The position numbers were made by a program, and so were the translations under genes. Under the pieces are notes generated by a model. That model had not been told where the DNA came from. It ran no database searches and saw only the letters and a program-made list of their open reading frames with translations. From a virus: 43,474 nucleotides of DNA. Every line of letters starts with the position of its first letter. Position 1 is the stretch's first letter. This document shows positions 4,066-32,752 of the stretch, piece after piece. The stretch covers positions 1 through 43,474 of the IMG/VR virus record IMGVR_UViG_3300035670_007019; one strand, 5' to 3'.

Positions 4066-4488
4066 ATGGGTAAATATAAATTCAAAAATCGTAAGTTTCC
4101 AATTAAGTTTCAGAAAGTAGTTGATTATATCAATGACCTAAAAGGCATTGAGGTTTCACTTTCTAATTCTACTTGTTTTATGGGACACTTCAACCGACAA
4201 ATTTTCATTCATCACAATTATGATTTGAATGAAAACGGATTGTTTGCGTTACTACATGAATGTGGACACGTATTACAACCGGTAACCAATATCGGTTCAA
4301 ACGCATATAAAAATATTGATTCGGATGAACATCCAAAGGAATTTATGATGGGTCAATTCTTAAATGAATTAGATGCTTGGAATCGAGGTTGGGAAATTGC
4401 TGAAAAATTAAATCTTAAAATAAATGTTAAAAAATTTGAAAAAGAAAAAGAGTTGGCTTTACTTACCTATTTTACTACTACTTGCTAG
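4066..4488 (+). CDS. HExxH metalloprotease-like protein (third of three)
   Basis: 140 residues. HECGH at residues 64-68 (LLHECGHVLQP) is a zincin motif; about 40 residues on, FLNELDAWNRGWEIAEKL contains Glu residues fit to be the third ligand, a layout seen in small phage and bacterial zincins with ELDAWxxG. Not clearly similar to its two upstream neighbours outside the motif. The last 65 nt also encode the beginning of the following lipoprotein in another frame. Confidence 0.7.
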   Translation: MGKYKFKNRKFPIKFQKVVDYINDLKGIEVSLSNSTCFMGHFNRQIFIHHNYDLNENGLFALLHECGHVLQPVTNIGSNAYKNIDSDEHPKEFMMGQFLNELDAWNRGWEIAEKLNLKINVKKFEKEKELALLTYFTTTC

Positions 4489-7802: not shown

Positions 7803-7867
7803 TATAGTATCTGATGGTATGAGATTTGTAATATATGATGTATTGTTTAACTAAAAAAGAAAAGATT

Positions 7868-8257
7868 ATGTACACAGCAAATTTAGGACACTTATTAGAT
7901 TTATTTGAGAAGGATTTACCTACTTGGAAAACATCAACAACATTACGAGATACTGCGGTTGGATATACTAAACAGAATGATGATTCATACGAATTAGCGT
8001 TTCAGGTGGTAGGACATCCAAAAGAAAATATTTCAATTGATGTTGATGGAAACTTATTAAAAATTAAGGCAGAAAGTTTATACTCCGAAGGTTCAATCCA
8101 AAATAATTTGGTTTCAACATTAGAGCACAACATTCGTATTTCATCTAATTACGATATTACACAAACATCTGCAGAAGTAGAGAATGGTATTTTATTGATT
8201 ACTATTCCAAAGAAAGCAGAAGCAAAACAAAAGAAAATTTCAGTAAAAGTAAAGTAG
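7868..8257 (+). CDS. Hsp20/alpha-crystallin small heat-shock protein
   Basis: 129 residues from the ATG at 7868; in-frame ATGs at 7835 and 7838 would add a Cys/Lys-rich stub and are less likely. The alpha-crystallin domain covers about residues 35-115, with YELAFQVVGHPKENISIDVDGNLLKIKAE and the closing ENGILLITIPKK (the conserved G-x-L then I-x-I). Such ATP-independent chaperones hold unfolded protein; T4-like phages of marine bacteria often carry one. Flanked by the palindromes upstream and a strong terminator, it is a single-gene unit. Confidence 0.92.
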   Translation: MYTANLGHLLDLFEKDLPTWKTSTTLRDTAVGYTKQNDDSYELAFQVVGHPKENISIDVDGNLLKIKAESLYSEGSIQNNLVSTLEHNIRISSNYDITQTSAEVENGILLITIPKKAEAKQKKISVKVK

Positions 8258-8282: not shown

Positions 8283-8316
8283 AAAGAGTCATCAATTTGG
8301 TGACTCTTTTTTTTTT
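8283..8316 (+). terminator. Terminator of hsp20 at the convergent junction
   Basis: AAAGAGTCATC (8283-8293) pairs with GGTGACTCTTT (8299-8309) around AATTT, followed by a long T run. The stop of the minus-strand GNAT gene lies inside the hairpin. On the minus strand the hairpin is followed only by TTTAC, so termination there would be weaker. Confidence 0.88.
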
Positions 8317-8744
8317 GTTTCAAACCCATTTGTAGTAAATACATTATGAGCTGCAACGTGCCAATCTTCACATATACATGATATTTTTGAAATAGGTATT
8401 GGCAACATTCCAATAGTTTTATTTACAAACCATTGTGCTGAATAATTTGGTCTTTTGTAACAATTTGTAACATACAAATTATATAAATAAAATTCGTTAT
8501 TCTCTTTTGGTTCATAAAACACATAACCAATTGCGTTATTACCATAATATAAAATAAACAAATGATGACCATTATTTATTCTAGTTTGAACATCATCAAA
8601 TATAAACATACCATCCCATTTATATTCTTCATTAAAAAAATATATTAGTTTTTTAATATCATCGGATAATACTTCATTATATCTTAATATACTAAGTTCT
8701 TCAATTTGGTTATAATCTGAAATATTTAATTCAAAATTTATCAT
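8292..8744 (-). CDS. GNAT-family N-acetyltransferase
   Basis: 150 residues. The N-terminal part is a helix-rich lead-in; the core shows the GNAT pattern: strand NAIGYVFYEP, strand EFYLYNLYVTNCYKRP where the acetyl-CoA loop should lie, and the C-terminal AAHNVFTTNGFETK matching the usual A-x-x-x-Y/F-x-x-x-G-F end. The substrate is unknown; a sugar amine or protein N-terminus is plausible given the neighbours. It is the last gene of the island and overlaps the oxygenase upstream by 4 nt. Confidence 0.75.
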   Translation of the reverse strand: MINFELNISDYNQIEELSILRYNEVLSDDIKKLIYFFNEEYKWDGMFIFDDVQTRINNGHHLFILYYGNNAIGYVFYEPKENNEFYLYNLYVTNCYKRPNYSAQWFVNKTIGMLPIPISKISCICEDWHVAAHNVFTTNGFETKKKESPN

Positions 8745-9220
8745 AATAAATTCTTTTTTACTAAATCTTCGTGATTGATAAAAATCAATGCACTTTTTCT
8801 AATACCATTTGTTATTTTTGTTATTTCATGCAATCTATTTGATTTAAAACAGTAAGGTACGCCTGGTCCTTTATCTATGATTTCGTTTGGGTTATATAAT
8901 ATATAATCACCACCATCATATTCATCGTTTATATGAAACCCAACAACATATGCTCTATTTTTATAATTACGTTCAACCGAATCTATGTGTTTATCGAAAT
9001 AATCACCAACATTATATTTGTGTATTATTAAACTATATTTCTTATGTATAAGTTTTTCACCACTTTCATTTTCAAACCAATCTAATAATTTAGTAGTTAT
9101 ATCCATCTCGTTATTCATCATAACAGCAAATTCATAACTTCTATCATCAAACTTTCGATAATCTACATTTTCCCAAAATGAATTTAAAAATTTTAATTCA
9201 GTATCGTTATATAATTTCAT
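8741..9220 (-). CDS. 2OG-Fe(II) oxygenase, prolyl-4-hydroxylase type (copy 1)
   Basis: 159 residues forming one double-stranded beta-helix. Iron ligands are His78 and Asp80 (FDKHIDS) and His131 (RLHEI); Arg141 (GIRKSAL) is placed to bind 2-oxoglutarate. GFHINDEYDGGDYILYNP is the typical P4Hc middle. These enzymes hydroxylate proteins, or modify sugars or small molecules; the target is unknown. A second oxygenase of the same type lies at the other end of the gene run (12716). Joined to its neighbours by overlapping start and stop codons. Confidence 0.88.
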   Translation of the reverse strand: MKLYNDTELKFLNSFWENVDYRKFDDRSYEFAVMMNNEMDITTKLLDWFENESGEKLIHKKYSLIIHKYNVGDYFDKHIDSVERNYKNRAYVVGFHINDEYDGGDYILYNPNEIIDKGPGVPYCFKSNRLHEITKITNGIRKSALIFINHEDLVKKNLL

Positions 9221-10473
9221 TACAAAAACTTTTTATTTGAATTAATTTTATCATTTTCTGTTTTAAAATCATCTAATAACATATCTAACATAGTATTTTC
9301 CGATTCTATTTTTTTAACAAACGCAATATGACATTCATTTGTCCATTCCTTTATTTTTTTATAGTTCTCATCAAAATTTTTTAAAAAGGAATCAATAAAC
9401 GATACAAATAAATCTACATTACCTTTATATAATTTTGCTTCATTATAAAACGGATGTTCTGAAATGTTTAATACTTTTTGTAACATTTCTAATGGATATG
9501 AATGAGTAGATACAAATGGTATATTTGCAAGAACTAATCCTAATGTTTTTTCAGAAAAATATTGATTTTGAAATTCATCTTTAGAATGAGCCCAACTTTC
9601 ATCTAATATTTGAATTTTGGCTTTTGATAGCATTCTAAACCATAAATCCCAAGTCAATCCACTTTGATATTGTATTAAAGTTATATTTTCAAAATCGGTA
9701 GTACCATTAATTGAATTAAAATGAATATTATCTATTTCTGATAATTCATTTTCATATGTGTTATAAAATTTACTTACCGGTGCTGAATTGGTTCTTTGTA
9801 ATAATAATTTTTTATTATTTAGTTTAGCCAAACCTTTTAATATATCACATCTATATTTTTTATGATTACGAACTGAATACATTAAATCATAATCAAAATT
9901 TAATTTCTCAAATATTTGTTTGTATTCATAATACCATCGTATTCCAATTATTTCATTCCATTGCCATATTGTATTTGTAAATGCAAAATAAATGTTTGGA
10001 AATCTATATCTAATATTATCATTTATAAATAAATTATCAGATATTATTTTGTGATTTTTTAACAATTGTATTTGTGATTCTAACTCATCTATGTGTATGG
10101 TAGTATCTAAATCACTTTTTGTTAAAATACGCTCAGTTCTAAATAATGTAATTATCCAATTTTTTTTATTTTCTAATAGTTCTACAAATTTACTAACTAT
10201 TGGTGTATCTTGTACATCACCAATATTCAATTCCATATAGGTAGAATCTGTATATCTTTGTAGTAATGCTGAAAAAAAATCTAATAAATGTAACCCATCA
10301 GTATTATCATTTATTTCTGGATTAAAATAAAATTCAATATCTACACCATTATAATTACAATATGCAGAACCAATATTGGTATTTAAATCAACTTCAATAA
10401 ATTTATTATTACTATTATGTGCTAATTTATAAAAAAGTATTTTACTATAATAGTGGTGTACATATATTTTCAT
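9220..10473 (-). CDS. Glycosyltransferase-like protein (GT-B/exostosin-like C-terminus)
   Basis: 417 residues. The C-terminal third contains LSKAKIQILDESWAH and then SEKTLGLVLANIPFVSTHS, the pattern (T/S-E-K-T, then a Pro-Phe turn) seen in the nucleotide-sugar-binding half of GT10- and GT47-like enzymes and in many marine phage proteins. The first half has mixed alpha/beta sequence without a clear motif. Likely transfers a sugar; donor and acceptor unknown. It lies between a SET protein and an oxygenase in one overlapping operon. Confidence 0.6.
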   Translation of the reverse strand: MKIYVHHYYSKILFYKLAHNSNNKFIEVDLNTNIGSAYCNYNGVDIEFYFNPEINDNTDGLHLLDFFSALLQRYTDSTYMELNIGDVQDTPIVSKFVELLENKKNWIITLFRTERILTKSDLDTTIHIDELESQIQLLKNHKIISDNLFINDNIRYRFPNIYFAFTNTIWQWNEIIGIRWYYEYKQIFEKLNFDYDLMYSVRNHKKYRCDILKGLAKLNNKKLLLQRTNSAPVSKFYNTYENELSEIDNIHFNSINGTTDFENITLIQYQSGLTWDLWFRMLSKAKIQILDESWAHSKDEFQNQYFSEKTLGLVLANIPFVSTHSYPLEMLQKVLNISEHPFYNEAKLYKGNVDLFVSFIDSFLKNFDENYKKIKEWTNECHIAFVKKIESENTMLDMLLDDFKTENDKINSNKKFL

Positions 10474-10886
10474 ATTATAGATAATTTGATATTTTTAGTT
10501 TTAAATGTTTCTACTAATTTCCAATAATTAGCATCACCATAATAAGTACAAATTTCTTCACCTACTTTTATATCTTTGATAGCAACAAACTGAAATGCCT
10601 TATGTTGTGGGTGGTTTCTCCAATATGCATTATTAGTATCAGAATGATTATATATACACCCATTACCTAATGGTAAAACATATTCTTCTAACTTACCTTC
10701 TGCCGGATAATTGAATTTATAATCATATAGAAAAAATGATTGTTCGCCTGGTTTAAATGGAAGTGTTATTAAATGACATTCCTCAATCACTTCACCTGCT
10801 TTGATTTCTTCAATAGCAAATACACCCATTCCATGTATCGGTGATTCTTTAACTTCTACCTTTGTTGCTACTTTTAAATTTATCAT
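10470..10886 (-). CDS. SET-domain lysine methyltransferase-like protein (copy 1)
   Basis: 138 residues, little more than the SET core. The N-terminal strand has HGMGVFAIEEIKAGEVI (GxG at 19-21), the knot motif is YNHSDTNNAYW with Asn80-His81, and the closing AIKDIKVGEEICTYYG supplies Tyr115/Tyr116 as catalytic tyrosine. SET enzymes use S-adenosylmethionine to methylate lysines; viral minimal SET proteins exist. The zinc-binding post-SET cysteines are absent. The SAM synthetase at 24774 could supply its cofactor. Target unknown; a virion or host protein. Confidence 0.85.
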   Translation of the reverse strand: MINLKVATKVEVKESPIHGMGVFAIEEIKAGEVIEECHLITLPFKPGEQSFFLYDYKFNYPAEGKLEEYVLPLGNGCIYNHSDTNNAYWRNHPQHKAFQFVAIKDIKVGEEICTYYGDANYWKLVETFKTKNIKLSII

Positions 10887-10888
10887 AA

Positions 10889-11590
10889 CTATATCAGCGT
10901 TTTATTGATTTTCGGAATCGGTAAATTATATTTCTCTTTACCTACATAATGTGTATAATAACTATTTGGTACTCGTAATCTATCCGAAAAATTATGAATA
11001 TTATATTGATTTGATAATAACGTTAAAAGATATTGAGATGTTATGGTACAACATAAATCAAATGTTTTTAAAGTATCTTTTCTAACTTTACAAAATTCAT
11101 ATAATTTAAACCATCTGTCTAAATATAATTCTTTTAATTCTTTATTATTAATTTTAAGAGTTCCTATGTTCATAACTCTTTGTTTTTCGACTTTCCATTC
11201 AGGTATTATATCCGATATACCTAACCCATCTAATTCATTTACACAATCATCATAAATACTTAACCAACTCTCCCATCCATCAAAATATACATCTACTGAA
11301 TCATCTAACTTTGGTAATCTATTATGAAATATAACATCACCATCTACTAATATATAATCATCATTTCTATTTAGTGGTATAGTTTTGAATGCATCCCAAA
11401 AAACAAATTCATCGGTTATTATATGTTTAATATCTACTAAATCATCAAACCAATCACAATTAGAATATAATTCAGTTTTATATCCTAATAGTTTAGCAGA
11501 ATTAATGCTATTCGTATAATACGATTTTAATACATCTATTTTATGTGAATCTGTATTTACAGTTTTATCAAATGTATATATTAAATTCAT
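10889..11590 (-). CDS. GT-A glycosyltransferase-like protein (copy 1)
   Basis: 233 residues. DYILVDGDVIF has Asp83-Gly84-Asp85, a DxD metal/nucleotide-sugar site of GT-A transferases; upstream is AKLLGYKTELYSN, downstream MNIGTLKINNKELKELY and the C-terminal SYYTHYVGK. The next gene (11590) shares the same frame of motifs, so the two are paralogues from a duplication. Together they could add successive sugars or act as a heterodimer. Soluble, no membrane segment. Only 2 nt separate it from the SET gene. Confidence 0.7.
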   Translation of the reverse strand: MNLIYTFDKTVNTDSHKIDVLKSYYTNSINSAKLLGYKTELYSNCDWFDDLVDIKHIITDEFVFWDAFKTIPLNRNDDYILVDGDVIFHNRLPKLDDSVDVYFDGWESWLSIYDDCVNELDGLGISDIIPEWKVEKQRVMNIGTLKINNKELKELYLDRWFKLYEFCKVRKDTLKTFDLCCTITSQYLLTLLSNQYNIHNFSDRLRVPNSYYTHYVGKEKYNLPIPKINKTLI

Positions 11591-12333
11591 TATAACAATT
11601 TAGTTGTAGGATTTAAGATAGAATCAACATGTTTCCATGCGGTAGGTGTAAATTTAGTTAATGACATATAATGAGTATAATCATTTATATTATTACATTC
11701 TTTACCAACATATTCGGTGCCTTCTAACAAACATGCAAACATATATTCACATACAATTATTGCAGGGTCATCTTTTTTAAATAGACGATTATCTGATTTA
11801 ATATTATCTATAAAGTATTTTCTAAATTTATAATAAGTGGATATAAATAATTCCTTTGTTTCTTTATTATTGAATTTAAGAATACCAACACTACATGCGT
11901 ATAGTGTATTATAGTTAAAATAATCTATATTAGATGTAATATCATAATCTTTAAAAATATTTAAATATCTTTGAAATTTAGTTTGTGTTTTAGATTTAAC
12001 CACTCCCTTTATTTCATATATCATATCACAATTAGTTGGCAAATTTAATTTAGATTCTAATATTATATCACCATCGATTGTAACACAATCTAAGTCTTCT
12101 TTTGAATGTATGTATAATTTTAAATCATCAGTAAGAACAAACTCTTCATTTGTAATATCTACATATTCATCTACTACATCCTTCAATTTTTGATAAGTAA
12201 AATCACAACCATATAATTTAATAGTATATCCCAATTGTTTTGAACGAGTAATTGCACCTTTGTATAAAAGTAATATCCAATCATTATCATCGTAATTACC
12301 CATTTTAGTGGAGTAACTATAAATTAGTTTCAT
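11590..12333 (-). CDS. GT-A glycosyltransferase-like protein (copy 2)
   Basis: 247 residues, a paralogue of the protein at 10889: MKLIYSYS resembles MNLIYTFD, SKQLGYTIKLYG resembles AKLLGYKTELYS, TIDGDIILESKL carries the DxD at 87-89, SVGILKFNNKETKELF mirrors the partner, and DYTHYMSLTKF the C-terminus. Divergence is considerable, so the duplication is old or the copies have different acceptors. Overlaps copy 1 by 1 nt and the SET gene upstream by 4 nt. Confidence 0.7.
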   Translation of the reverse strand: MKLIYSYSTKMGNYDDNDWILLLYKGAITRSKQLGYTIKLYGCDFTYQKLKDVVDEYVDITNEEFVLTDDLKLYIHSKEDLDCVTIDGDIILESKLNLPTNCDMIYEIKGVVKSKTQTKFQRYLNIFKDYDITSNIDYFNYNTLYACSVGILKFNNKETKELFISTYYKFRKYFIDNIKSDNRLFKKDDPAIIVCEYMFACLLEGTEYVGKECNNINDYTHYMSLTKFTPTAWKHVDSILNPTTKLL

Positions 12334-12716
12334 ATTAAATTTTGTTTTATAATTACTTTTTCTTCAATATAATCAAAATCAAATACTCCATATTTGTTTA
12401 TTAATCGCATCGGTAATTCTATTATTTTGATAATATCTAAATAATTTATAGTTAATTCTTCAAATTGATTAATATCTCTATTAGTATATATTTTAATAGC
12501 ATCACCATCTAATTCTAAATTACAATTTGGAATTCTATTATGATTTAAATATCTACCTAATGGGTTAGTTTCAACCCATCCTTCGTAAATGAGTCTACTT
12601 TCTGTCGATATAGTTTCTGATTTTGTAAAGTAATTACCAATAAAGGTATTGGATGTAATTGATGTAGATGAAATAATTCCTATTCCTCTTGATTCAAAAT
12701 TATATTTTTTAAACAT
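12330..12716 (-). CDS. SET-domain protein (copy 2)
   Basis: 128 residues. The GxG strand is ESRGIGIISS (11-13), the SET knot GRYLNHNRIPNC (Asn58-His59), and the end NRDINQFEELTINYLD places Tyr92 as the catalytic tyrosine. It is shorter and more divergent than the SET protein at 10470; the acidic E-E-L-T-I-N-Y signature is retained, so activity is plausible. The last ~35 residues form a tail without recognisable motif. Sandwiched between an oxygenase and a glycosyltransferase. Confidence 0.75.
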   Translation of the reverse strand: MFKKYNFESRGIGIISSTSITSNTFIGNYFTKSETISTESRLIYEGWVETNPLGRYLNHNRIPNCNLELDGDAIKIYTNRDINQFEELTINYLDIIKIIELPMRLINKYGVFDFDYIEEKVIIKQNLI

Positions 12717-13222
12717 TAAATTATATTTTTTGAAATATCAAAATCACTTTCATGTAAAAACAGAACTAATGAATATCGTTCACCATCTTCTAACATAGTT
12801 ACTTCATGTTCCGCAGTAGGTGATATAGACGTTATTGAACCGATTACTCTAGATTGCGGAGTATTTTCTACAATTAAATCACCTCCTATATAATCAGATG
12901 ATTCTGATAATTGAACTAATAAAGTTTTGTAAATTATATCAACTCCGTATTTGGAAAAATCTTGATGTTTAGCCAAACTACCACCTTTACCATATTTCAT
13001 AATTTTTATGGTAGGTATATTTTTTACCTTTAAGGGTGTAAGTTTTTGTAAGAGAAAATTCTTTAGTTCAGAATTATCAATTGTTACAAATTTGGCAGAA
13101 CTACCTTTTCTGAATTTTATTTGAATGCCATTCAGAGTGTGAGTATCCATACCATCAACTTCATCGTATAATGAATAAAATGACTTTATATACTCACACT
13201 CTTCTTTAGAAAATATAACCAT
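12716..13222 (-). CDS. 2OG-Fe(II) oxygenase, prolyl-4-hydroxylase type (copy 2)
   Basis: 168 residues. Iron ligands are His86 and Asp88 (LAKHQDFS) and His139 (AEHEVTML), with Arg149 (GERYSLVLFL) for 2-oxoglutarate. YIGGDLIVEN corresponds to GGDYILYN of copy 1. The N-terminus MVIFSKEECEYIKSFY matches the start typical of phage P4H-like proteins. Substrate unknown. It is the first gene of the overlapping run that ends with the GNAT; 14 nt separate it from a small open frame upstream. Confidence 0.85.
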   Translation of the reverse strand: MVIFSKEECEYIKSFYSLYDEVDGMDTHTLNGIQIKFRKGSSAKFVTIDNSELKNFLLQKLTPLKVKNIPTIKIMKYGKGGSLAKHQDFSKYGVDIIYKTLLVQLSESSDYIGGDLIVENTPQSRVIGSITSISPTAEHEVTMLEDGERYSLVLFLHESDFDISKNII

Positions 13223-13236
13223 TTAAGTAAGTTTAA

Positions 13237-13374
13237 TTACATATGTTTATCCTTAATGTATTGGATAAAATTAGTTAAAATGACATTAACTTGTTGATTT
13301 ATAGTTGGTGTAGTTGTTACAACTTGTTTGTTGTCCAAATCACTTTTAGTAAATGTTTTATATATTTGTGCCAT
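13237..13374 (-). CDS. Small hypothetical protein (45 aa)
   Basis: An ATG on the minus strand at 13374 opens 45 codons ending with TAA at 13237-13239. The product begins MAQIYKTFTKSDLDNKQV, continues with a Thr-rich turn and ends in a helix-like NVILTNFIQYIKDKHM. Not recognised. It fills the only space between the Hint-domain gene and the oxygenase and runs in the same direction, which supports it; alone its length would not. Confidence 0.5.
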   Translation of the reverse strand: MAQIYKTFTKSDLDNKQVVTTTPTINQQVNVILTNFIQYIKDKHM

Positions 13375-13384
13375 AGTGAAATCC

Positions 13385-15652
13385 TTATTTATTATGTACT
13401 AAAATTTGGTTAGCGTAAAAATTGTGATTATCTTCGACTGTTATGATATAAGTTTGAGTATCTTTCTCATCTAACTCTATTATATCTTTAATAGCAGTTC
13501 TACTTACACCATTTGATAAGTAAACCATATCACCAGTTTTGATTTGTTTAACTTCTTTATCTAATTCGTAACGTTTGTTTGTTAAGAATGGAGTATAAGA
13601 TGCCAATTCTAAATCACCAACATAGAATGGATGGTCAAACGTACATACTATTGAAGTTTGATTTGCAAATTCGTATTTAACTAAATCGTTGTGAATTGGA
13701 GTTTTTAAACCAATTACTTTTTTAACTTCATTTTGTAAAGTTGATTCATTAAATGAAAGTACCTCATCACCAATTACTACATCTTCAATATTCTTTTGAG
13801 AACCATCTCCCATAACTACCTTAGTTCCAGCAACAAAGCAAGAACCACCACTATATTTAAAGTTATGAACTAATAAGTTTTCAGCATAATATGTGTGATT
13901 ATCTTTAACATCTAAAATATGATAAACCTCAACCTCACCAACAATCGTTTCCTTTTCAGTTACAATAGTTTCATTGCCATTTCTATTAATTAGAATATCA
14001 TTTAATGTAATATCTTGTGCAGCAATCCATCCTTTACCTTTAACATAGAACTTATGTAATGCAGTAGATTTAACTTCATTACCATCATCAGTTTTGTGTC
14101 TGATTAATAGATGTTCTTTTTTCTTTACGATATTCCCAATAACACCTTCTGTTTTTTCACCTGTAAATTCGTTATATGTTAAGATTTTATCAGTTAATAA
14201 TAAATCTTCAATATTCTTTTGAGTACCATCTGCTAAAGTAATTTTAGTTCCAGCAGGGAAGCAGTTATGTGTAACAATCTTAACACTTAATTCTCCATTT
14301 GATAAGAAATAAGTATCAGATGTCTCCATATCAATAATATATGTTTTATAATCACCATCTAATATTTCTATTACAATTGAATCAATATTGATTAATCCAC
14401 CTGTTAAATTAATTAACTGATGTTTAGTTTCATCTAATTTTGCTATTGATTCATAACGAATACAATTTAAATCAATATCATGTACTAACAAATGAACTCC
14501 ACCAGATGCTCTAAATTCAGAACCATCTTCCATAGTTAAATGAAATGCCAGATTGTATAAAAGGGGTTGTTCTATTTTATTGATTAAAACAGAACTAGTA
14601 GCATATGAACCAGATGGTAATTCTGAACCAGCATGTGACCACGCCATAAAAGTAGAAACCACATCGGTATCAGGTGCTCCATTTATAAAATAAGATTTAA
14701 ATTCATCTCCAACTGATGCACTTCCAATCAATATGGTAGTACCATCTGCTTTAATAATTTCTTCTTCTTCGAATATACCACCCCAATTATAAACATTTGT
14801 AAATTTTGGATAATTTGTTGTTAATTCATAATAGTGTTTTACATCAATCTCATTTGCTATTTGTGTATCATCGTATTCAATTGATGTTGGTTTTACAAAT
14901 AATCCTTCTGTTGTATAATTTCCAACGTTTATTAAATCTAAATTACTACCATAAATAATATTAAATGAACGAACCGATGTTACTTTTGTTTCCGAAGCAT
15001 CTTCGTAAAATTTAATAATTAATTTATCATCGGATAATGAACCAGTGAATTCACTCCATCTATCATCCGTTGTTTCAGATGATTTACCAATCTTATAAAA
15101 TGATATTGGATGTGTTGTATTTGCAGATGTATCTTTAACTGCCACATCTGGTATGTTTGTAGTATTAAAATCTTTTGGTAAATTATCAAATTCAAATCCT
15201 TGTACGGATGATGAAAACGAATATTCTACAATTGATGCAGTATCATTATTTTCTGTAAATAATTGTAATGGTCCTAATACACTTTTAGCATATTCGGAAT
15301 CAAAAATGGATGCTTCATCATACGCAAAACGTAAGATAAATTTTGTAGAACTATCAGTTATTGCAGTTGGATAAATAGTACCAGCTTCCTCAATTGTAGA
15401 ATCAAACGATATTATAAATGGTGCGTTTGAAAATATACTTTGTGATAATTCTGCTACAATATCTGTATGAATTTCTTTGTGAATTGTATGTAATTCAGTT
15501 ATAGCTGAAGCAGATAGTATTTCTATAAAATTTGTGTAATCTAAAAAAGAAAGTCCATTTGGTACACAACCGGTATCAGTATTTACTTCCATTAATCTTA
15601 AATTGCCAGTAGTATCTTTAATAAAATCTGCTGAAAAAAATGTTCCCTTCAT
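13385..15652 (-). CDS. Large protein with two tandem C-terminal Hint (bacterial intein-like) domains
   Basis: 755 residues. Residues 464-597 and 605-754 are two Hint domains: each begins with Cys in CFPAGTKI or CFVAGTKV, has GSQKNIED- or GTQKNIED-like block A, a TALH or TFDH block B, and ends with YAENLLVHN or YANQILVHN. They are followed by Phe and by the C-terminal Lys, not Cys/Ser/Thr, as in bacterial intein-like proteins that cleave rather than splice neatly. The N-terminal ~460 residues look beta-rich; residues 1-40 (SADFIKDTTGNLRLMEVNTDTG) and RFAYDEASIFDSEYAK recall ATP-grasp metal/ATP motifs (weak). Preceded by a late-type promoter motif. Confidence 0.85.
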   Translation of the reverse strand: MKGTFFSADFIKDTTGNLRLMEVNTDTGCVPNGLSFLDYTNFIEILSASAITELHTIHKEIHTDIVAELSQSIFSNAPFIISFDSTIEEAGTIYPTAITDSSTKFILRFAYDEASIFDSEYAKSVLGPLQLFTENNDTASIVEYSFSSSVQGFEFDNLPKDFNTTNIPDVAVKDTSANTTHPISFYKIGKSSETTDDRWSEFTGSLSDDKLIIKFYEDASETKVTSVRSFNIIYGSNLDLINVGNYTTEGLFVKPTSIEYDDTQIANEIDVKHYYELTTNYPKFTNVYNWGGIFEEEEIIKADGTTILIGSASVGDEFKSYFINGAPDTDVVSTFMAWSHAGSELPSGSYATSSVLINKIEQPLLYNLAFHLTMEDGSEFRASGGVHLLVHDIDLNCIRYESIAKLDETKHQLINLTGGLINIDSIVIEILDGDYKTYIIDMETSDTYFLSNGELSVKIVTHNCFPAGTKITLADGTQKNIEDLLLTDKILTYNEFTGEKTEGVIGNIVKKKEHLLIRHKTDDGNEVKSTALHKFYVKGKGWIAAQDITLNDILINRNGNETIVTEKETIVGEVEVYHILDVKDNHTYYAENLLVHNFKYSGGSCFVAGTKVVMGDGSQKNIEDVVIGDEVLSFNESTLQNEVKKVIGLKTPIHNDLVKYEFANQTSIVCTFDHPFYVGDLELASYTPFLTNKRYELDKEVKQIKTGDMVYLSNGVSRTAIKDIIELDEKDTQTYIITVEDNHNFYANQILVHNK

Positions 15653-15671
15653 ATGTCTTAGTATTTCTTCT

Positions 15672-15683
15672 CTATAAATATAT
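15672..15683 (-). promoter_or_regulatory. ATATATTTATAG motif before the Hint-domain gene
   Basis: Read on the minus strand, ATATATTTATAG lies 19 nt before the ATG at 15652. Same motif and spacing class as upstream of 32342, 36173 and 43221. It suggests a second transcription start inside the island. Confidence 0.55.
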
Positions 15684-15725
15684 GTAAACTGAAAAAAGGT
15701 GGTGATACTCCACTAGGTTGTTTTA

Positions 15726-16280
15726 TTATTGTATTTCTATACTCATATTTAATAATTTTGTATAATAAATCATTTCAATTTCTAATTTTTTGTTTACCAT
15801 TTCAAATTCTTGTTTAAACTTATTTTTGAATTCTAATAAAACGAATTCTTTAGATATGTTAAACCCAAATTCAGACCAATCATATTCTGATTTGTTATGT
15901 GGAATTGAATATCCTTCTGATACTAAAAAATTAGATAAATCTGATAATTCAATAATTTGTATTGATGGATTTTGTATAAAAATAGAATACAAAAATCTAT
16001 AAGTTTTAGGATTCCAATGACCTATTCCATTTTCATTTATAGTACCACGAAGTATATGTTCTATATTTTGAATTGAATTATGGGTGTTTTTAAAATTTAC
16101 ATATTCAGTATGAATTGCAGATTCAAAATGTTCATATGGGTTTCGTATAACAATATGTGTTATTTGTTTAAGATTATCGCTATTTACATCAAAACGTTTA
16201 TCTTTAAATATTTTTCGTAAATGTCTAGTACCACATTTAGCAGGTGCTAATATTCGATTATCAAATAATTTAATATCCAT
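15726..16280 (-). CDS. Sulfotransferase-like protein
   Basis: 184 residues. LAPAKCGTRHLRKIF (residues 11-25) resembles the 5'-phosphosulfate-binding loop (P-K-x-G-T-T/S), and HIVIRNPYEHFESA (Arg46, Ser54) the 3'-phosphate-binding motif R-N-P-x-x-x-x-x-S of PAPS-dependent sulfotransferases. It is shorter than cellular carbohydrate sulfotransferases (about 250-300 residues), so it may be a minimal form. Likely sulfates a glycan. Its start overlaps the SGNH hydrolase stop by 1 nt. Confidence 0.72.
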   Translation of the reverse strand: MDIKLFDNRILAPAKCGTRHLRKIFKDKRFDVNSDNLKQITHIVIRNPYEHFESAIHTEYVNFKNTHNSIQNIEHILRGTINENGIGHWNPKTYRFLYSIFIQNPSIQIIELSDLSNFLVSEGYSIPHNKSEYDWSEFGFNISKEFVLLEFKNKFKQEFEMVNKKLEIEMIYYTKLLNMSIEIQ

Positions 16281-16984
16281 TATATGAATAGTGTATTGTA
16301 AAATTTAGAATAATCTATACAATCATATCCAAGTTTATCAACGATATGTTTACCTATAAAATAATTACCAAGTTCATTTGGATGACCACCCACATCACAA
16401 TTCATTTCATTTAATTTAAAAAAATCTATTAACCCATCAAACATAGTAATATTTGAATTAAAATCTAATATTCTTGTTAAATCCATTTCATTATATACAT
16501 TTGATTTTTTAACCAATTTTGACAATTCCATATAATTAAAAAACCAATATTCTATATTATGTTTTTTTAAAACTTCTTGTAACGCAAACATATAATGTAA
16601 TGTATGTTGACTACCCATAGGTTCAAATTTTACTCCTAAATGTGAATTATCCCACGGGTTTACAAATACATACTTACCATCTTCATCAGAGTGCATTCTA
16701 CGATTTGGACCAGACCACTGAATGATTACATAATCTGGTTTATTACCACTATGTATCAATGCCAAAATAGTTTCTAAACTTTTATGGAATATATAATCAT
16801 TTCCTGCACCATGCATTGCTTGATTGTATAATACGTGCGAATCTTTTTTAATAATAGATGGTACAATATTTGTCGAATATGCTTGAGAACCTATAATACT
16901 TTTCATAACAATCATTGGCCACGTTTTATCACGTTTCATACAATGACCTGCCGTATGTGAACATCCGTTTGTGTAAATTATCAT
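16280..16984 (-). CDS. SGNH/GDSL-type hydrolase-like protein
   Basis: 234 residues. Block I is TNGCSHTAGH with Ser9 as probable nucleophile, block III QAMHGAGNDYIF with the oxyanion Asn, a Gly-rich region WSGPNRRM, and block V DVGGHPNELGNYFIG with the catalytic His. SGNH hydrolases remove or transfer acyl groups on carbohydrates. Related genes are frequent in T4-like marine phages and are usually linked to surface polysaccharide or tail-fibre modification. It is the first gene of the island, 24 nt from the late-type motif in the divergent region. Confidence 0.8.
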   Translation of the reverse strand: MIIYTNGCSHTAGHCMKRDKTWPMIVMKSIIGSQAYSTNIVPSIIKKDSHVLYNQAMHGAGNDYIFHKSLETILALIHSGNKPDYVIIQWSGPNRRMHSDEDGKYVFVNPWDNSHLGVKFEPMGSQHTLHYMFALQEVLKKHNIEYWFFNYMELSKLVKKSNVYNEMDLTRILDFNSNITMFDGLIDFFKLNEMNCDVGGHPNELGNYFIGKHIVDKLGYDCIDYSKFYNTLFI

Positions 16985-17007: not shown

Positions 17008-17022
17008 ATATATAAATATATA
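17008..17022 (-). promoter_or_regulatory. Late-type motif driving the inverted island
   Basis: On the minus strand the sequence reads TATATATTTATATA, 24 nt before the ATG of the SGNH gene at 16984. It pairs with an oppositely oriented copy at 17046-17057, making a compact divergent promoter region. Confidence 0.55.
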
Positions 17023-17259: not shown

Positions 17260-18354
17260 ATGAACTGGCTTAAATATTTGGTAGGATTATCAGCGATAAT
17301 TGTTGCCGGATGTGCTGCTTATTTTTCGGTTACAGGTTTAGGAGTTTTATTCGCAGGAGCATCTACATCGGTAATGATTATGGCTAGTTCATTAGAATTA
17401 GCTAAGTTAGTTGCTGCAACTTACTTAAAACAAACGTGGGATGAAATCAAAGGATTCAACAAATGGTATTTAACTATATCAGTTGGTATTCTTATGATGA
17501 TTACATCCGCAGGTATTTTTGGTTATTTATCAAATGCGTTCCAACAACAAAATTTAGCATTACAACAAGTAGATAGAGAAATTCTTGTTCACACTACAAA
17601 GATAGAACAAAATGAATCTCAAATTCAACAACTATCTACTCAAATTTCTGAATTCAATTCTAATCAAGGTAAAATTATCGATGGTGGTAAAGTGAACTCA
17701 CGTCTACTTCGTTCTATTGATAATAGAGATAAACAAATTTCTAAACTAAATGATAAGATTGCTAAATTGCAAGAAGATAATGCTTTGGAAAATGATGCAA
17801 TTAATAAAATCAAAACTGATAATTTAGGATTAGAAAAAGAGGTAGGTGGATTCCGATTCGTTGCAGAAGCATTTGGATTGGATTTAAATACAGTCGTTAA
17901 GTTCTTTATCTTTATTATCGTAATTGTATTTGACCCCCTTGCAGTTGCATTAATCATTGCGTTTAATGGATTGATTGGTAAGAAAAATATGTATGGTGAA
18001 TCCGAACCCTTAGTGGAAAAAAATTATCAAATTTACGAAGATAGTGGAAAAAATTTACCAATCGAAGAAGAATCTGAAATTATAGTGGAAAATAATTTAT
18101 CATCAGAACAAATATTTGATGAAGCAGATTCTAATAAAGATGGAGTTGTATCCGAAGAAGAACGTAGAGAATGGTATGAGAAAGATGGTTGGAAAGACCC
18201 ATATGATGGTAAGGCATATTATTTACACCCGTGGTTTGATTGGAATAAAAAAGAACGTTGGATTAACGATAGAGAAGCAATCAATTATTGGTTAAATCAT
18301 ATGGGTGGTAATCAAAATGCAGTTATTCAATATAAAAAAGAAATTAAAAAATAA
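17260..18354 (+). CDS. Multi-pass membrane protein with coiled coil and EF-hand
   Basis: 364 residues. Three or four hydrophobic segments lie at about residues 5-23, 28-48, 70-90 and 212-238; a Gln/Lys/Asp-rich coiled coil spans about 95-195. After the last membrane segment a soluble tail contains DSNKDGVVSEEE, a complete 12-residue EF-hand loop with Glu at position 12, and a Trp/Tyr-rich end (YLHPWFDWNKKERW). Not a named family to me; similar architecture is seen in T4-like marine phages. It may sense calcium or shape the host membrane. Co-transcribed with the Fe-S carrier. Confidence 0.7.
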   Translation: MNWLKYLVGLSAIIVAGCAAYFSVTGLGVLFAGASTSVMIMASSLELAKLVAATYLKQTWDEIKGFNKWYLTISVGILMMITSAGIFGYLSNAFQQQNLALQQVDREILVHTTKIEQNESQIQQLSTQISEFNSNQGKIIDGGKVNSRLLRSIDNRDKQISKLNDKIAKLQEDNALENDAINKIKTDNLGLEKEVGGFRFVAEAFGLDLNTVVKFFIFIIVIVFDPLAVALIIAFNGLIGKKNMYGESEPLVEKNYQIYEDSGKNLPIEEESEIIVENNLSSEQIFDEADSNKDGVVSEEERREWYEKDGWKDPYDGKAYYLHPWFDWNKKERWINDREAINYWLNHMGGNQNAVIQYKKEIKK

Positions 18355-18360
18355 ACATAT

Positions 18361-18684
18361 ATGATTACAGTGTCAGATACTGCAGCAAAAAGAGTTCAAT
18401 CCCTAATTGGGGAAACTGATTTTAAAACTCCCTATTTAAGAGTTGGTGTTAAGGGCGGTGGATGTAGTGGATTATCATATGACCTTTCTTTTGATACTGA
18501 CCCACTTCCTAACGATACTTTAATCGAAGATATGGGTGTAAAAATATTAGTAGATAATAAATCTTTATTATATCTTGTTGGTACACAATTGGACTTTTCG
18601 GATGGCTTAAATGGTAAAGGTTTCCAATTTATAAACCCAAATGCAAGTAGAACGTGTGGTTGTGGGGAAAGTTTTTCCCTATAA
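18361..18684 (+). CDS. A-type iron-sulfur carrier (IscA/ErpA/HesB family)
   Basis: 107 residues, full family length. The three cluster-binding cysteines are present: GGGCSGLSYDL (first Cys) and the C-terminal RTCGCGESF (last two). The core LRVGVKGGGCSG, a middle ILVDNKSLLYLVGTQLDF and NPNASRTCGCG match the HesB consensus. It delivers Fe-S clusters to apo-enzymes; the phage reason is unclear, although phages of marine bacteria encode it repeatedly. Stop codon lies just before the next host-type promoter. Confidence 0.93.
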   Translation: MITVSDTAAKRVQSLIGETDFKTPYLRVGVKGGGCSGLSYDLSFDTDPLPNDTLIEDMGVKILVDNKSLLYLVGTQLDFSDGLNGKGFQFINPNASRTCGCGESFSL

Positions 18685-18744: not shown

Positions 18745-19644
18745 ATGAATTTAGGTTACGCGTGTATCAATATGACATTAGGAGAACAATCTCCTAAAAT
18801 TACTACCAATCGTAGTATGGTTAAGAAAACGTTTCATCAGAAAGGTATTTCTTACGCCTCCGAATTAGCCCTACAAAACTCTCGTGATTTATTTGAGATT
18901 ATCAAATGGAATGTTTCTAAGAATATTAAAGTATTCCGTATTTCATCAGATATGTTTCCGTGGGCTTCCGAATACAACGTAGAAGATATGCCAGATTATA
19001 CTAAAATCTCAAACATCCTTAAAGGTTGTGGTACTTATGCTAAGAATAATGGATTACGTCTTACATCACATCCCGGTCCGTTTAACGTATTAGTTTCACC
19101 AAATCCAAACGTAGTTGATAATACTATTAAAGATTTAGAATTACATGGTAAAGTATTTGATTTATTAGGATTAGATTTAACTCCTTACAATAAGATTAAT
19201 ATCCACTGTAATGGTGTTTACGGAGATAAAAAATCTGCGTTAGATAGATTTATCACCAACTATAAAAGACTCTCTGAATCGGTTCAAAAACGATTAACAA
19301 TAGAGAATGATGATAAGGCATCTATGTATTCAGTTAAAGACCTTATGTATGTACATGAGCAAATCGGTATTCCGATTGTATTTGATTATCATCACCACCA
19401 ATTTTGTACAGGTGATTTATCCGAAGAACAAGCATTGAAACTTGCAGTATCAACTTGGCCAGATGGTATTAAACCCATCGTTCATTATTCGGAATCAAAA
19501 GCGTTACACGAAAATAATCCAAAAGAAAAACCACAGGCACATTCACTTTACATTAACTCGCTTCCTAATACATACGGAATGGATGTGGATTGTATGGTAG
19601 AGGCCAAAGCAAAAGAATTAGCAATATTACCTTTTATTAAATAA
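18745..19644 (+). CDS. uvsE: UV damage endonuclease UvsE/UVDE
   Basis: 299 residues, usual length. The TIM-barrel motifs of UVDE are clear: LGYACINMTL at the start, FRISSDMFPWAS, RLTSHPGPFNVL, KINIHCNGVYGDKKSALDRF, LTIENDD, PIVFDYHHHQFC and HYSESK. His and Glu residues in these strands bind three metal ions. The enzyme nicks DNA 5' of UV photoproducts and starts alternative excision repair, useful for a phage exposed to sunlight. First gene of the repair/helicase operon. Confidence 0.95.
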   Translation: MNLGYACINMTLGEQSPKITTNRSMVKKTFHQKGISYASELALQNSRDLFEIIKWNVSKNIKVFRISSDMFPWASEYNVEDMPDYTKISNILKGCGTYAKNNGLRLTSHPGPFNVLVSPNPNVVDNTIKDLELHGKVFDLLGLDLTPYNKINIHCNGVYGDKKSALDRFITNYKRLSESVQKRLTIENDDKASMYSVKDLMYVHEQIGIPIVFDYHHHQFCTGDLSEEQALKLAVSTWPDGIKPIVHYSESKALHENNPKEKPQAHSLYINSLPNTYGMDVDCMVEAKAKELAILPFIK

Positions 19645-21749: not shown

Positions 21750-22136
21750 ATGGATAATTTTTTAAGATATTCACCAATAATATTATTTGTTTCAATATTG
21801 TTATTAGCACTTGGTTTTAGTATAAATCACAATAAAGAAAATATAACAAAGGCAGAAGGTAGTTATATGTCATCATTACAAAAAATAGATTCTTTACAAA
21901 GTGTAATCAACGAACTACAATCGGAATTGGAAACACAAGAAAAGGGATTTTCTAATAAAGAACAAAGATATGAAGATATTCTTTTTGAATACGAATATGG
22001 GTTAGATAGATTAAAAGAAACCCATCCATCTGCGTATAAAGAATTTCACCGAATCATTGCATTCAAAGAAAGATATTCAGTTGAAGATAAAATTGATAAT
22101 CAAAAAAGATTAAAATCATATGAACAACTTAGATAA
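21750..22136 (+). CDS. Membrane-anchored coiled-coil protein
   Basis: 128 residues from the ATG at 21750. One N-terminal membrane helix (YSPIILFVSILLLALGFSI, about 7-25) is followed by a long coiled coil (about 40-75: SSLQKIDSLQSVINELQSELETQ, heptad Leu/Ile) and a helical C-terminus. The topology of a spanin-like inner-membrane protein is possible, but no partner outer-membrane lipoprotein overlaps it. Overlaps thyA by 17 nt. Confidence 0.6.
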   Translation: MDNFLRYSPIILFVSILLLALGFSINHNKENITKAEGSYMSSLQKIDSLQSVINELQSELETQEKGFSNKEQRYEDILFEYEYGLDRLKETHPSAYKEFHRIIAFKERYSVEDKIDNQKRLKSYEQLR

Positions 22137-23346
22137 ATCATATCAAGCATTATTACAAGACATATTAGATAATGGAGTAGAAAAAGGAGATAGAACCGGA
22201 ACTGGCACTATTTCTGTTTTTGGTAGACAGATTCGTCATAAAATGAGTGAGGGATTTCCATTATTAACCACAAAAAAAATGGCGTGGAATGTTATGGTTG
22301 CCGAACTCCTATGGTTTTTAAGAGGAGATACTAACATCAAATTCCTATTAGATTACGATTGTCACATTTGGGATGGTGATGCATATAAAAATTATGAAAT
22401 AAATTTTAGAGATGAACCACCATATGTACCTTCAAAGGCTATTTGGTCACAATCGGAGTTCATTCAACAAATCAAAACCGATGAAAAGTTTGCCCAACGT
22501 TGGGGTGATTTAGGTCCAATTTATGGTAAACAATGGAGAGGATGGGATTGGGATTTAAACCCAAATCCAATTGACCAAATTGCAAACCTAATCAATGATT
22601 TAAAAACAAATCCCGATAGTAGAAGATTGATGGTTAGTGCTTGGAATGTTGGTGCATTAGAGTCAATGGTTCTTCCACCTTGTCATTATGGATTTCAAGT
22701 TTATACGAGAGAGTTAAGTATTGAGGAACGATTGGAGTTAGCGTCTAAAACTTATAAAGTATTTGAACCTTTTGATTTTCATAGAGGTGACCACGAAGAA
22801 ATTGATGAATTATATCCAGTTCCTAAAAGAGCAATCTCCCTAATGTGGAATCAACGAAGTGTAGATACATTTTTAGGATTACCATTCAATATTGCATCAT
22901 ATGGTTTGTTATTAGAAATTATTGCAAAGGAGGTAAATATGATACCTGATGAGTTGATTGGTAATTTAGGTGATGTTCATTTGTATTCAAACCATATTGA
23001 ACAAGCTAAAGAACAAATTGGTAGAGAATTAACTTTGGAAGAACGAATGCATTGGTGGTTTGAAAATCATAAGCCGAATCGTGATGTTTGTGATAATATT
23101 GATGAACAATCTGATTATGCTAAAGGGGTCTATTTCGATTCGGCAGGAGTACCTAAACGAACAAGAGAACCTTATGAATTACCATCAGTAAATATCACCG
23201 AACGAAATTGGTATTTACATCACAAAGTAAAAGAACATTTAGGTCCTAAAACATTTGATGAAAAGATTATGAGTTATAGACCAGATTGTTTTGAATTAGT
23301 TGGATATACCTCACATCCAAAAATTAAAGCACCCCTAAGTAACTAA
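22120..23346 (+). CDS. thyA: Thymidylate synthase with large insertions
   Basis: 408 residues against about 264-320 for most ThyA. Catalytic Cys188 lies in LPPCHYGFQ; the folate/dUMP motifs GDRTGTGT, GPIYGKQWRGW, RRLMVSAWN, FLGLPFNIASYG and HLYSNH are all present. The Asn of FNIASY argues for dUMP rather than dCMP as substrate. Extra segments lie before the GPIYGKQW motif, after PPCHYGFQVY (about 38 residues) and after HLYSNH (about 50 residues). The last two inserts both begin REL-x-x-EER. Makes dTMP for phage DNA synthesis. Confidence 0.95.
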   Translation: MNNLDKSYQALLQDILDNGVEKGDRTGTGTISVFGRQIRHKMSEGFPLLTTKKMAWNVMVAELLWFLRGDTNIKFLLDYDCHIWDGDAYKNYEINFRDEPPYVPSKAIWSQSEFIQQIKTDEKFAQRWGDLGPIYGKQWRGWDWDLNPNPIDQIANLINDLKTNPDSRRLMVSAWNVGALESMVLPPCHYGFQVYTRELSIEERLELASKTYKVFEPFDFHRGDHEEIDELYPVPKRAISLMWNQRSVDTFLGLPFNIASYGLLLEIIAKEVNMIPDELIGNLGDVHLYSNHIEQAKEQIGRELTLEERMHWWFENHKPNRDVCDNIDEQSDYAKGVYFDSAGVPKRTREPYELPSVNITERNWYLHHKVKEHLGPKTFDEKIMSYRPDCFELVGYTSHPKIKAPLSN

Positions 23347-27344: not shown

Positions 27345-28103
27345 ATGGCAAAAACAAGAAAACCAAAAGATAAAGTATATTTTGGAACACCTGCACAAGA
27401 TGCAATAGTAGAATACAATAAATGTAAAGACCCCGTAAAACGTTCTAAAATTTACGAAGAAAGAATTAAATATCCTTTTGAAAAGTTAGCAGAAAACGTA
27501 TTAAATACATTTAAGTTTTCATATTTTGATGTATCTAAAAAGGATATACAAATGGAAGTAGTTTCTACTATGGTAGAAAAAATGCATATGTATAAAGAAG
27601 GTAAGGGTAGAGCATTCTCTTATTTTACCATCATTGCAAAGAATCATTTGATTCTAAAAAACAACGGAAACTACAAACGTTGGAAACAAAATGCTTTAAT
27701 TTCTGAAATGCCTGAAAGTTGGAATCCTGAGAATGATTTTTACGAAACCGAAGAAGGAACTGAATTCAGAGAATTTAAAGATATAATGTTAGCCTATTGG
27801 GATAAACATTTAACAACCATATTTAATAAAAAAAGAGATATACAAATTGCAGATGCGGTATTGGAATTATTCCGTAGAAGTGATTATATAGAAAATTTTA
27901 ACAAAAAACATTTATATCTACTTATTAGAGAAATGACTGATTGCAAGACTCATTATATCACAAAAGTGGTAAATATAATGAAACAACATCAGAAAAAAAT
28001 GTTAAACGATTATTTAGAAGAAGGTGATTTTTCAGTAAGAGATGAACCTTTTTGGGTATCGCCAGATTCAATAAGTGGTGATGAAGATTATGATGAAGAA
28101 TAA
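27345..28103 (+). CDS. gp55-like late-transcription sigma factor
   Basis: 252 residues. The best-kept part, about residues 64-115 (EVVSTMVEKMHMYKEGKGRAFSYFTIIAKNHLI, given here in key pieces, then LKNNGNYKRWKQNA), matches the region-2-like helix of T4 gp55-type sigma factors, where A-F/Y-S-Y-F is conserved. The C-terminal end is acidic (GDEDYDEE), which would suit contact with a sliding clamp or RNA polymerase. It probably directs RNA polymerase to late promoters; ATATTTATA before tail genes is the candidate site. The end overlaps the carbamoyltransferase. Confidence 0.78.
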   Translation: MAKTRKPKDKVYFGTPAQDAIVEYNKCKDPVKRSKIYEERIKYPFEKLAENVLNTFKFSYFDVSKKDIQMEVVSTMVEKMHMYKEGKGRAFSYFTIIAKNHLILKNNGNYKRWKQNALISEMPESWNPENDFYETEEGTEFREFKDIMLAYWDKHLTTIFNKKRDIQIADAVLELFRRSDYIENFNKKHLYLLIREMTDCKTHYITKVVNIMKQHQKKMLNDYLEEGDFSVRDEPFWVSPDSISGDEDYDEE

Positions 28104-32341: not shown

Positions 32342-32752
32342 ATGAGCACAGAATTTGAAATATTCCCTGGCAAAAGTTTGAGTGGATTATTTAAAGATAT
32401 TTACGATAATCAACAAAATAAGAAAGCAAGAATTTCGGAATTAATAGCCGAAATGAGAAAGTTAATTCGTCACGCAGGTGATATGGCAGTTATTGGTCCA
32501 ATTCTAAAAGATTTAGTAGATGTATCAGTTCGTAATGATGATGCGTTAATTAAATTAGCAACAATTGCACAACGTATTGTTACTGCAAACACTAAATCCG
32601 AAGGTGAAGTTGGATTCTTATCTGATGCTGAAAAAGAACAATTATTGAAAGAAATTGAAGTAACTGTCAACGATGTAAAAGATGAACAAGATGCAAAGGT
32701 AGATGAATTGACAAACGAAGTTGAAGAATTAAAACAAAAGATTGGTAAGTAA
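32342..32752 (+). CDS. Conserved-looking tail-module protein with coiled coil
   Basis: 136 residues. The first ~85 are helical (GKSLSGLFKDIYDNQQNKKARISELI, abbreviated by its ends, then GDMAVIGPILKDLVDVSVRNDDALIKLATIAQRIV); the last 35 form a coiled coil (DEQDAKVDELTNEVEELKQKIG). Proteins like this precede the baseplate hub gene in T4-like marine phages; role unknown, perhaps a chaperone or hub component. The stop overlaps the next start by 1 nt. Confidence 0.65.
   Translation: MSTEFEIFPGKSLSGLFKDIYDNQQNKKARISELIAEMRKLIRHAGDMAVIGPILKDLVDVSVRNDDALIKLATIAQRIVTANTKSEGEVGFLSDAEKEQLLKEIEVTVNDVKDEQDAKVDELTNEVEELKQKIGK

Follow-up and report, generated by a model that had tools for sequence, protein, structure and literature searches.

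A probable late gene cassette of T4-like environmental viruses built around an ATP-grasp/Hint hub protein

What do the enzymes of a densely packed phage gene island act on, and what holds the island together? The question is raised by twelve genes on the minus strand (positions 8292–16984) of the IMG/VR virus record IMGVR_UViG_3300035670_007019, which is probably a fragment and whose 43,474 bases are the window analysed here. An earlier note, made from the letters alone, listed two 2-oxoglutarate (2OG)-Fe(II) oxygenases, two SET-domain proteins, three glycosyltransferase-like proteins, a GNAT acetyltransferase, a sulfotransferase-like protein, an SGNH hydrolase and a tandem Hint protein in this island, and proposed a stepwise modification pathway. 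Comparison of sequences and structures shows a conserved late cassette that comprises an ATP-grasp/Hint hub protein, a small partner and prolyl 4-hydroxylase (P4H)-type oxygenases. Tentatively, and at somewhat less than an even chance, we read the island as a late pathway that yields a peptide or protein segment bearing chemical modifications, arranged around the hub as a self-processing ligase and precursor, with both substrate and product putative.

The hub protein, its small partner and the oxygenases

Related islands were sought by viral scans with SET1 (one of the two SET-domain proteins), the SGNH protein and the Hint protein as the first probes. A profile of hub residues 1–280 matched 97 loci in one IMG/VR scan; the best 80 of these 97 yielded 61 distinct hub proteins, including that of the window, and later scans together with a sister branch (see below) raised the number of distinct proteins examined to 77, which makes this a conserved and widespread viral gene system.

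The hub gene (13385–15652; here and below, all island features are on the minus strand) encodes a protein of 755 amino acids (aa) in which a circularly permuted ATP-grasp domain is followed by a degenerate Hint domain and two canonical ones, the chain ending in HN-K. The tandem Hint domains seen by the earlier note are clear; that note, however, took the protein for a mere member of the cassette and missed the N-terminal ATP-grasp and degenerate Hint domains of what is its universal hub. Hub residues 1–280 (14813–15652) were modelled by AF2 from 59 sequences (pLDDT 89), and the only significant Foldseek matches of the model were homoglutathione synthetase, YjfC and YgiC (probability 1.00, E 1.1e-5). 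Re-alignment with VIA gave Z scores of 9.4 with human glutathione synthetase, 8.5 with YgiC and 7.6 with GspS, against 5.8 or less for other ATP-grasp families and unrelated entries. As modelled, the N-domain has the circularly permuted ATP-grasp fold of the glutathione synthetase/YgiC type, a relation visible by fold comparison only: its profile matched nothing among PDB sequences, and a BFVD search returned no significant match. Hub D9, E22 and N24 align with D318, E330 and N332 of GspS, which we take to be its metal-binding residues, and with the corresponding stretch of YgiC (metal-binding D...E-x-N). Across the 77 distinct hub proteins D9, E22, R108, D118, K173 and R228 are invariant, N24 is kept in 76 (the exception being one ambiguous letter) and K187 in 75.

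The degenerate Hint domain (residues 281–463; 14264–14812) has no Cys1 and keeps His462-Asn463. It was recognized by profile (hhalign against the canonical Hint profile, probability 96%, E 2e-9) and by structure, the Prp8 intein superposing on residues 292–459 of the hub model with Z 17.1. Despite the loss of the Cys, Asn463 is present in all 77 proteins and His462 in 74; such strict retention of the Asn is as expected if selection is for C-terminal cleavage. The canonical domains, at residues 464–597 (13862–14263; Cys464 to His-Asn597) and 605–754 (13391–13840), the latter followed by a lone Lys755, come closest to bacterial-intein-like (BIL) domains (Z 25.1, for the second domain, with BIL2 of Tetrahymena BUBL1 and 21.2 with the BIL domain of C. 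thermocellum); canonical copies have Cys1, carry TxxH in 86 of 90 cases and keep the C-terminal HN. Self-processing of the hub is predicted. The sole segment between self-cleaving domains here is FKYSGGS (residues 598–604; 13841–13861), a candidate released peptide or a plain linker. Most relatives in the Hint branch likewise end in HN-K and have one to three canonical Hint domains separated by 0–14 residues. The full-length hub model has a pTM of 0.48 and does not fix the relative placement of the domains.

Between the hub gene and that of the oxygenase OX2 lies the twelfth gene of the island (13237–13374), which the earlier note did not describe and which is as conserved as the hub. Its 45-aa product (MAQIYKTFTK...QYIKDKHM) is a near-universal partner: a member of the family stands directly downstream of the hub gene in 60 of the 61 relatives and occurs in the sister branch as well. 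Family members are 38–53 aa long and predicted to be helical, share a YK pair and a C-terminal stretch, F-x-x-x-x-K, both of them conserved, and end in a variable residue (S, L, M, T, E, I, V or G). The nonsynonymous rate was well below the synonymous one in 13 of 14 pairs, which indicates purifying selection; conservation in the 45-aa alignment was too low for it to serve in a scan.

The two oxygenases, OX2 (12716–13222) and OX1 (8741–9220; PF13640, 1.4e-5), each fall just under the Pfam cut-off when taken singly, and both contain HxD...H...R. A profile of their 37-member family matches PKHD/prolyl hydroxylases at up to 2e-15, with H86 invariant and H139 and R149 near-invariant. Judged by these profiles they are of the P4H type, a class of peptide and protein hydroxylases; the family profile also matches 6ax6, a Mimivirus-type procollagen lysyl hydroxylase/glycosyltransferase (2.5e-5).

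Recurrence, timing and the remaining genes of the island

Within 12 genes of the hub, 58 of the 61 relatives encode a 2OG oxygenase, 41 an SGNH protein, 31 a sulfotransferase-like protein, 29 a radical SAM protein, 27 a SET protein, 23 a glycosyltransferase-like protein and 16 a carbamoyltransferase, counts that are not corrected for shared ancestry and come from contigs differing in gene order and content. Oxygenases make up 129 of the 885 genes at most eight positions from the hub, against 18 of 683 further away, and those of the cassette are on the same strand as the hub. Dozens of other contigs have the same families next to the hub gene, which shows that the grouping is not due to chance. 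The SET, glycosyltransferase, sulfotransferase, radical SAM, GNAT and SGNH genes shuffle between phages whereas the hub, the small protein and the oxygenase stay, and minimal cassettes (L131, L132 and L141) hold little beyond these three and a sulfotransferase.

The cassette occurs in T4-like environmental viruses, and all relatives are uncultivated. T4-type gp23 was found in 8 of the 16 records tested (all at least 190 kb), each of which has one hub copy. In isolated phages, tblastn with GT417, GTa (both described below) and three hub proteins revealed no carrier of the N-domain, hub matches being confined to Hint domains, and among bacterial and archaeal species genomes a pattern scan, which may miss distant relatives, gave 15 matches and no hub relative.

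The late timing that the earlier note had suggested is supported by a late-promoter-like motif, TATTTATA, which lies 28 bp before the hub gene (15673–15680) and 34 bp before the SGNH–sulfotransferase gene pair (17011–17018). Within 100 bases upstream it precedes 52 of 72 hub genes and 64 of 1280 other genes (5%), an enrichment with p of about 1e-44, not corrected for ancestry. In the window it also stands 29 bases before the gene at 32342 and 31 bases before that at 36173, which opens a baseplate run, and in three relatives it precedes the gene adjoining gp23. Its frequency over the whole window is at chance level (17 against 14.7 expected), the signal being its position before certain genes. 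Since the motif is common to structural operons and hub genes, the cassette is probably late, and late expression is well supported on these sequence grounds. The T4 late motif TATAAATA was considered as the late signal of the cassette and rejected: it is not enriched (4% against 2%), whereas coding-strand TATTTATA is. A second, distinct promoter-like element, TTCGTAT.TTAGCTTTGTAAT or TTCGTATATTAGCTTTATAA, lies upstream of the genes at 4066, 18745 (UvdE) and 30830. We take the TTAGCTTTGTAAT element to be Bacteroidota-like, which hints at the phylum of the host.

The packing of the island is as the earlier note described it: the twelve genes follow one another tightly, with 1- or 4-base overlaps at 8741–8744, 9220, 10470–10473, 11590, 12330–12333, 12716 and 16280, and their neighbours are on the plus strand. 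The reading of the island as a co-transcribed modification cassette is supported. That the island is inverted holds for the window. In its closest relatives the island is again found among HD, HSP20, tmEF and UvdE, before HD-HSP20-tmEF, but co-oriented with these neighbours: the inversion is particular to the phage of the window.

Among the remaining enzymes, the two SET-domain proteins, SET1 (10470–10886) and SET2 (12330–12716), exceed the Pfam cut-off (PF00856, 7e-14 and 2.4e-11), and the earlier calls of these and of the two oxygenases are confirmed. Close homologues of SET1 occur in L005, L006, L007 and L008 with no hub visible nearby, and another in a 735-kb uncultured phage (LR756501.1:692213-692551); SET1 may therefore have a wider role.

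Calls for the other genes are plausible but weak, resting as they do on marginal profiles, motifs and the matches of relatives. The GNAT-like protein (8292–8744), which has a homologue in the L014 cassette, scores 0.022 alone, and three of its four relatives match Acetyltransf_1 (best 4.5e-4). The SGNH/GDSL-like hydrolase (16280–16984) matched GDSL structures at 0.009, and relatives in the same cassettes pass or approach the Pfam GDSL threshold. In the sulfotransferase-like protein (15726–16280) motifs resembling the loop for PAPS (3'-phosphoadenosine-5'-phosphosulfate) are conserved and one pooled relative matches Sulfotransfer_4 at 1e-3; the subfamily of the window has no database match and no PDB relative. 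An APS kinase gene is present in eight related cassettes. Of the three proposed glycosyltransferases, the paralogues GTa (10889–11590) and GTb (11590–12333), the latter GT-A-like, have an invariant DxD motif, and six of 47 pooled proteins match DUF6734, but no PDB or Pfam glycosyltransferase match and no solved relative was found for them or for GT417. GT417 (9220–10473; 417 aa), a conserved protein and possible GT-B glycosyltransferase that recurs in cassettes of the sister branch, had no database match at all.

Several genes around the island deserve mention. Host-like genes flank it, encoding HSP20 (7835–8257), an IscA-type iron-sulfur protein (18361–18684) and the UV endonuclease UvdE (18745–19644); tmEF (17260–18354), a membrane protein with a coiled coil and a possible EF-hand, adjoins HD-HSP20 in all close relatives. 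In the thymidylate synthase (22120–23346; 408 aa) the Pfam match takes up 300 residues against 227 positions of the model, which points to an insertion within the domain. The gene at 28075–29805 encodes a Nol-like carbamoyltransferase, a relative of which lies near the hub in the 16 contigs counted above, frequently accompanied by E1-like, RmlC-like or APS-kinase genes. Sugar-pathway genes (RmlC-like, SIS, E1-like and carbamoyltransferase) are found near the hubs of several relatives, and fused proteins of 900–1200 aa that join a glycosyltransferase to an FkbM methyltransferase or a pyruvyltransferase stand beside the hub at L082:15039-17753 and L018:3-3524.

What the cassette may make

In a sister branch of 14 distinct relatives (L014, L151–L167) the invariant Asn is followed by 67–109 variable residues and then by an S74-like domain in place of the canonical Hint domains. 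The hub tree separates the Hint and S74 branches with full support, the type of C-terminus having switched only a few times. The S74-like domain keeps a Ser and a Lys five residues apart in 14 branch members; the Pfam S74 model matched once only, and weakly (7.8e-4). The variable segment is rich in Cys, Tyr and Gly (Cys 10.6% against 0.5% elsewhere, pooled with naked tails); in three further relatives the chain finishes with a naked, Cys-rich tail 42–50 residues long, in one more with a Pro-rich tail, and L087 has a variant Hint C-terminus. In 85 of 91 pairs of the branch conservation is lowest in this middle segment, and between L161 and L162 it differs at 43 of 234 bases, against 7 of 840 in the ATP-grasp and 2 of 219 in the S74 part (p = 3e-25, middle against flanks). 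Changes in this putative cargo fall on all codon positions. Signs that it is the target of a diversity-generating retroelement did not emerge: a search of 10 large Hint-branch records for reverse transcriptase gave none (the S74-branch records, which are fragments, were not searched for one), and 18 loci with S74 or naked C-termini showed no convincing template repeat beside the cargo.

In the pathway that we tentatively favour, Asn cyclisation at the degenerate Hint domain would cut at the N-terminal boundary of the segment that comes next, and a downstream self-cleaving module, a canonical Hint domain or the S74 domain of the sister branch, would cut on its C-terminal side. The invariant Asn in a Cys-less Hint domain and the replacement of Hint by S74 at the same position suggest that two successive cuts freeing the segment are the shared purpose. 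The segment thus exposed, 7 aa here and long and hypervariable in the S74 branch, may be hydroxylated, glycosylated, sulfated, methylated or acetylated, the hub itself or the small partner being alternative targets of the enzymes, and the ATP-grasp domain may make an amide bond on the segment or on the small partner. The logic would be like that of ribosomally synthesized and post-translationally modified peptides (RiPPs), with ligase and cleavage domains carried on the same chain as the precursor that they serve, and would operate while virions are made. In its boldest form, the cassette would define a class of phage ribosomal peptides for which a single polypeptide provides the precursor, the ATP-grasp ligase and two self-cleaving domains, tailored late by hydroxylases and by glycosyl-, sulfo- and methyltransferases, its fast-diversifying cargo being delivered with or on virions; that much is possible, if doubtful.

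Several observations weigh against a modified, released segment. Candidate segments of the Hint branch, the window's own, are in many cases just 0–2 residues long or alike in close relatives, so that peptide release has weak support in this branch, and fast evolution of the segment was seen there in one pair (9 of 36 bases, p = 0.004) and not in others. The position of GspS Arg316, which lies two residues before the Asp and which we take to be an important catalytic Arg, holds Ser in 62 and Gly in 15 of the 77 hub proteins. Catalysis by the hub may therefore differ or be lost, and we claim the ATP-grasp fold, not membership of the GspS/YgiC enzyme family. No exporter was identified, and S74 domains are familiar chiefly from the trimeric fibres of virions.

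The last point leads to the main rival and best alternative, maturation of a virion tip, which we consider possible but on the unlikely side. The hub would then be a virion-associated adhesin or part of a fibre, the hypervariable segment its receptor-binding tip, the S74 and Hint domains self-removing folding modules, and the enzymes would decorate the tip by hydroxylation, glycosylation and sulfation. A hypervariable segment between conserved flanks, a single hub copy per genome and a late motif TATTTATA shared with structural operons agree with this, as do the role of S74 domains in tail-fibre assembly (PMC7824862) and the fact that Fe(II)-dependent oxygenases are listed alongside genes for host recognition in marine-phage islands (PMC3909814). 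A fibre, however, has no need of an invariant ATP-grasp active site, Hint-branch proteins are without a tip-sized segment, and in large records tens of kilobases separate the hub gene from gp23.

The version of the earlier note, in which the enzymes act stepwise in trans on side chains of ordinary virion proteins or on host glycans, with the Hint protein as one incidental member, seems improbable. It would account for a tight operon with oxygenase, methyltransferase and glycosyltransferase side by side, for the late motif and for the sugar-pathway genes near several relatives; yet it leaves unexplained a hub that, with its small partner, is near-universal while the other enzymes vary, and the minimal cassettes keep little else. 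More improbable still is that the 45-aa partner is the carrier or precursor peptide, loaded by the ATP-grasp domain and tailored there in the manner of LysW or pearlins, the Hint domains only maturing the ligase. Its place immediately downstream of the hub gene, its purifying selection, and a size and type of partner typical of carrier peptides speak for such a role, and ArgX–LysW is among the weak structural matches of the hub N-domain (Z 5.8), but the C-terminal residue is variable, unlike that of LysW-type carriers, and the partner has no core-like variable region. Finally, a DNA- or RNA-modification or anti-defence pathway, suggested by one Pfam match of OX2 to Oxygenase-NA (0.0011), a weak Tet-like match of the oxygenase profile and the thymidylate synthase nearby, is very improbable, as protein hydroxylases lead the matches of the oxygenases by many orders of magnitude, PADLOC yields generic 2OG and endonuclease matches only, and the timing is late.

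If the cassette makes a modified peptide, phages would count among the makers of decorated peptides and could supply new ligases and cleavage modules; if the hub instead matures a virion tip, phage morphogenesis would include a dedicated route of protein hydroxylation and glycosylation.

Relation to known systems

The earlier note knew of no described phage system with this combination of enzymes, and we found none in the literature and isolate collections searched, nor any paper joining phage Hint, ATP-grasp and S74. A jumbo cyanophage has a secondary-metabolite cluster with carbamoyltransferases, 2OG oxygenases, a halogenase and a HemK-like methylase, predicted to make a metabolite or to decorate a glycan (PMC7824862). 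Like hub cassettes, it combines a phage carbamoyltransferase with several 2OG hydroxylases, whereas the passages that describe it include no ATP-grasp–Hint hub, small partner or SET proteins. The Mimivirus-type enzyme 6ax6 resembles the cassette in viral hydroxylation followed by glycosylation, but the cassette enzymes are separate and small, and its glycosyltransferase-like proteins have no solved relative; no collagen substrate was found, none having been looked for.

Graspetides and other RiPP pathways share with the cassette an ATP-grasp ligase, a small neighbouring peptide and tailoring enzymes. The hub differs in that its ATP-grasp domain is of the permuted glutathione-synthetase type, in the fusion of a precursor-like segment to ligase and self-cleaving domains, and in being viral; of the graspetide-type features the ligase fold is present throughout, and a clearly hypervariable segment in the S74 branch only. 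A survey of graspetides (PMC8939145) makes no mention of phage, intein, oxygenase or glutathione, and 'virus' appears in its reference list only.

With YgiC/YjfC, GspS and eukaryotic glutathione synthetase the hub shares the fold over the whole N-domain, the D..E.N metal motif and invariant lysines at the positions expected of the ATP-site lysines. YgiC and YjfC are reported as peptide–spermidine ligases (in a paper cited in PMC12568646), and peptide–spermidine ligase is the RefSeq name of YgiC. The hub is shorter than these enzymes, fused to Hint domains and encoded by a late phage gene, has Ser or Gly in place of Arg316 and has no sequence relative in PDB that a profile search could detect. 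With the BIL domains of Tetrahymena BUBL1 (BIL2) and C. thermocellum its canonical Hint domains have Cys1, TxxH and HN in common; here, however, they form a tandem array behind an ATP-grasp ligase, the first copy is Cys-less and the C-terminal extein is usually a single Lys. As far as we found, the hub joins an amide-bond-forming type of ATP-grasp domain to intein-type self-cleavage in a pairing not described before.

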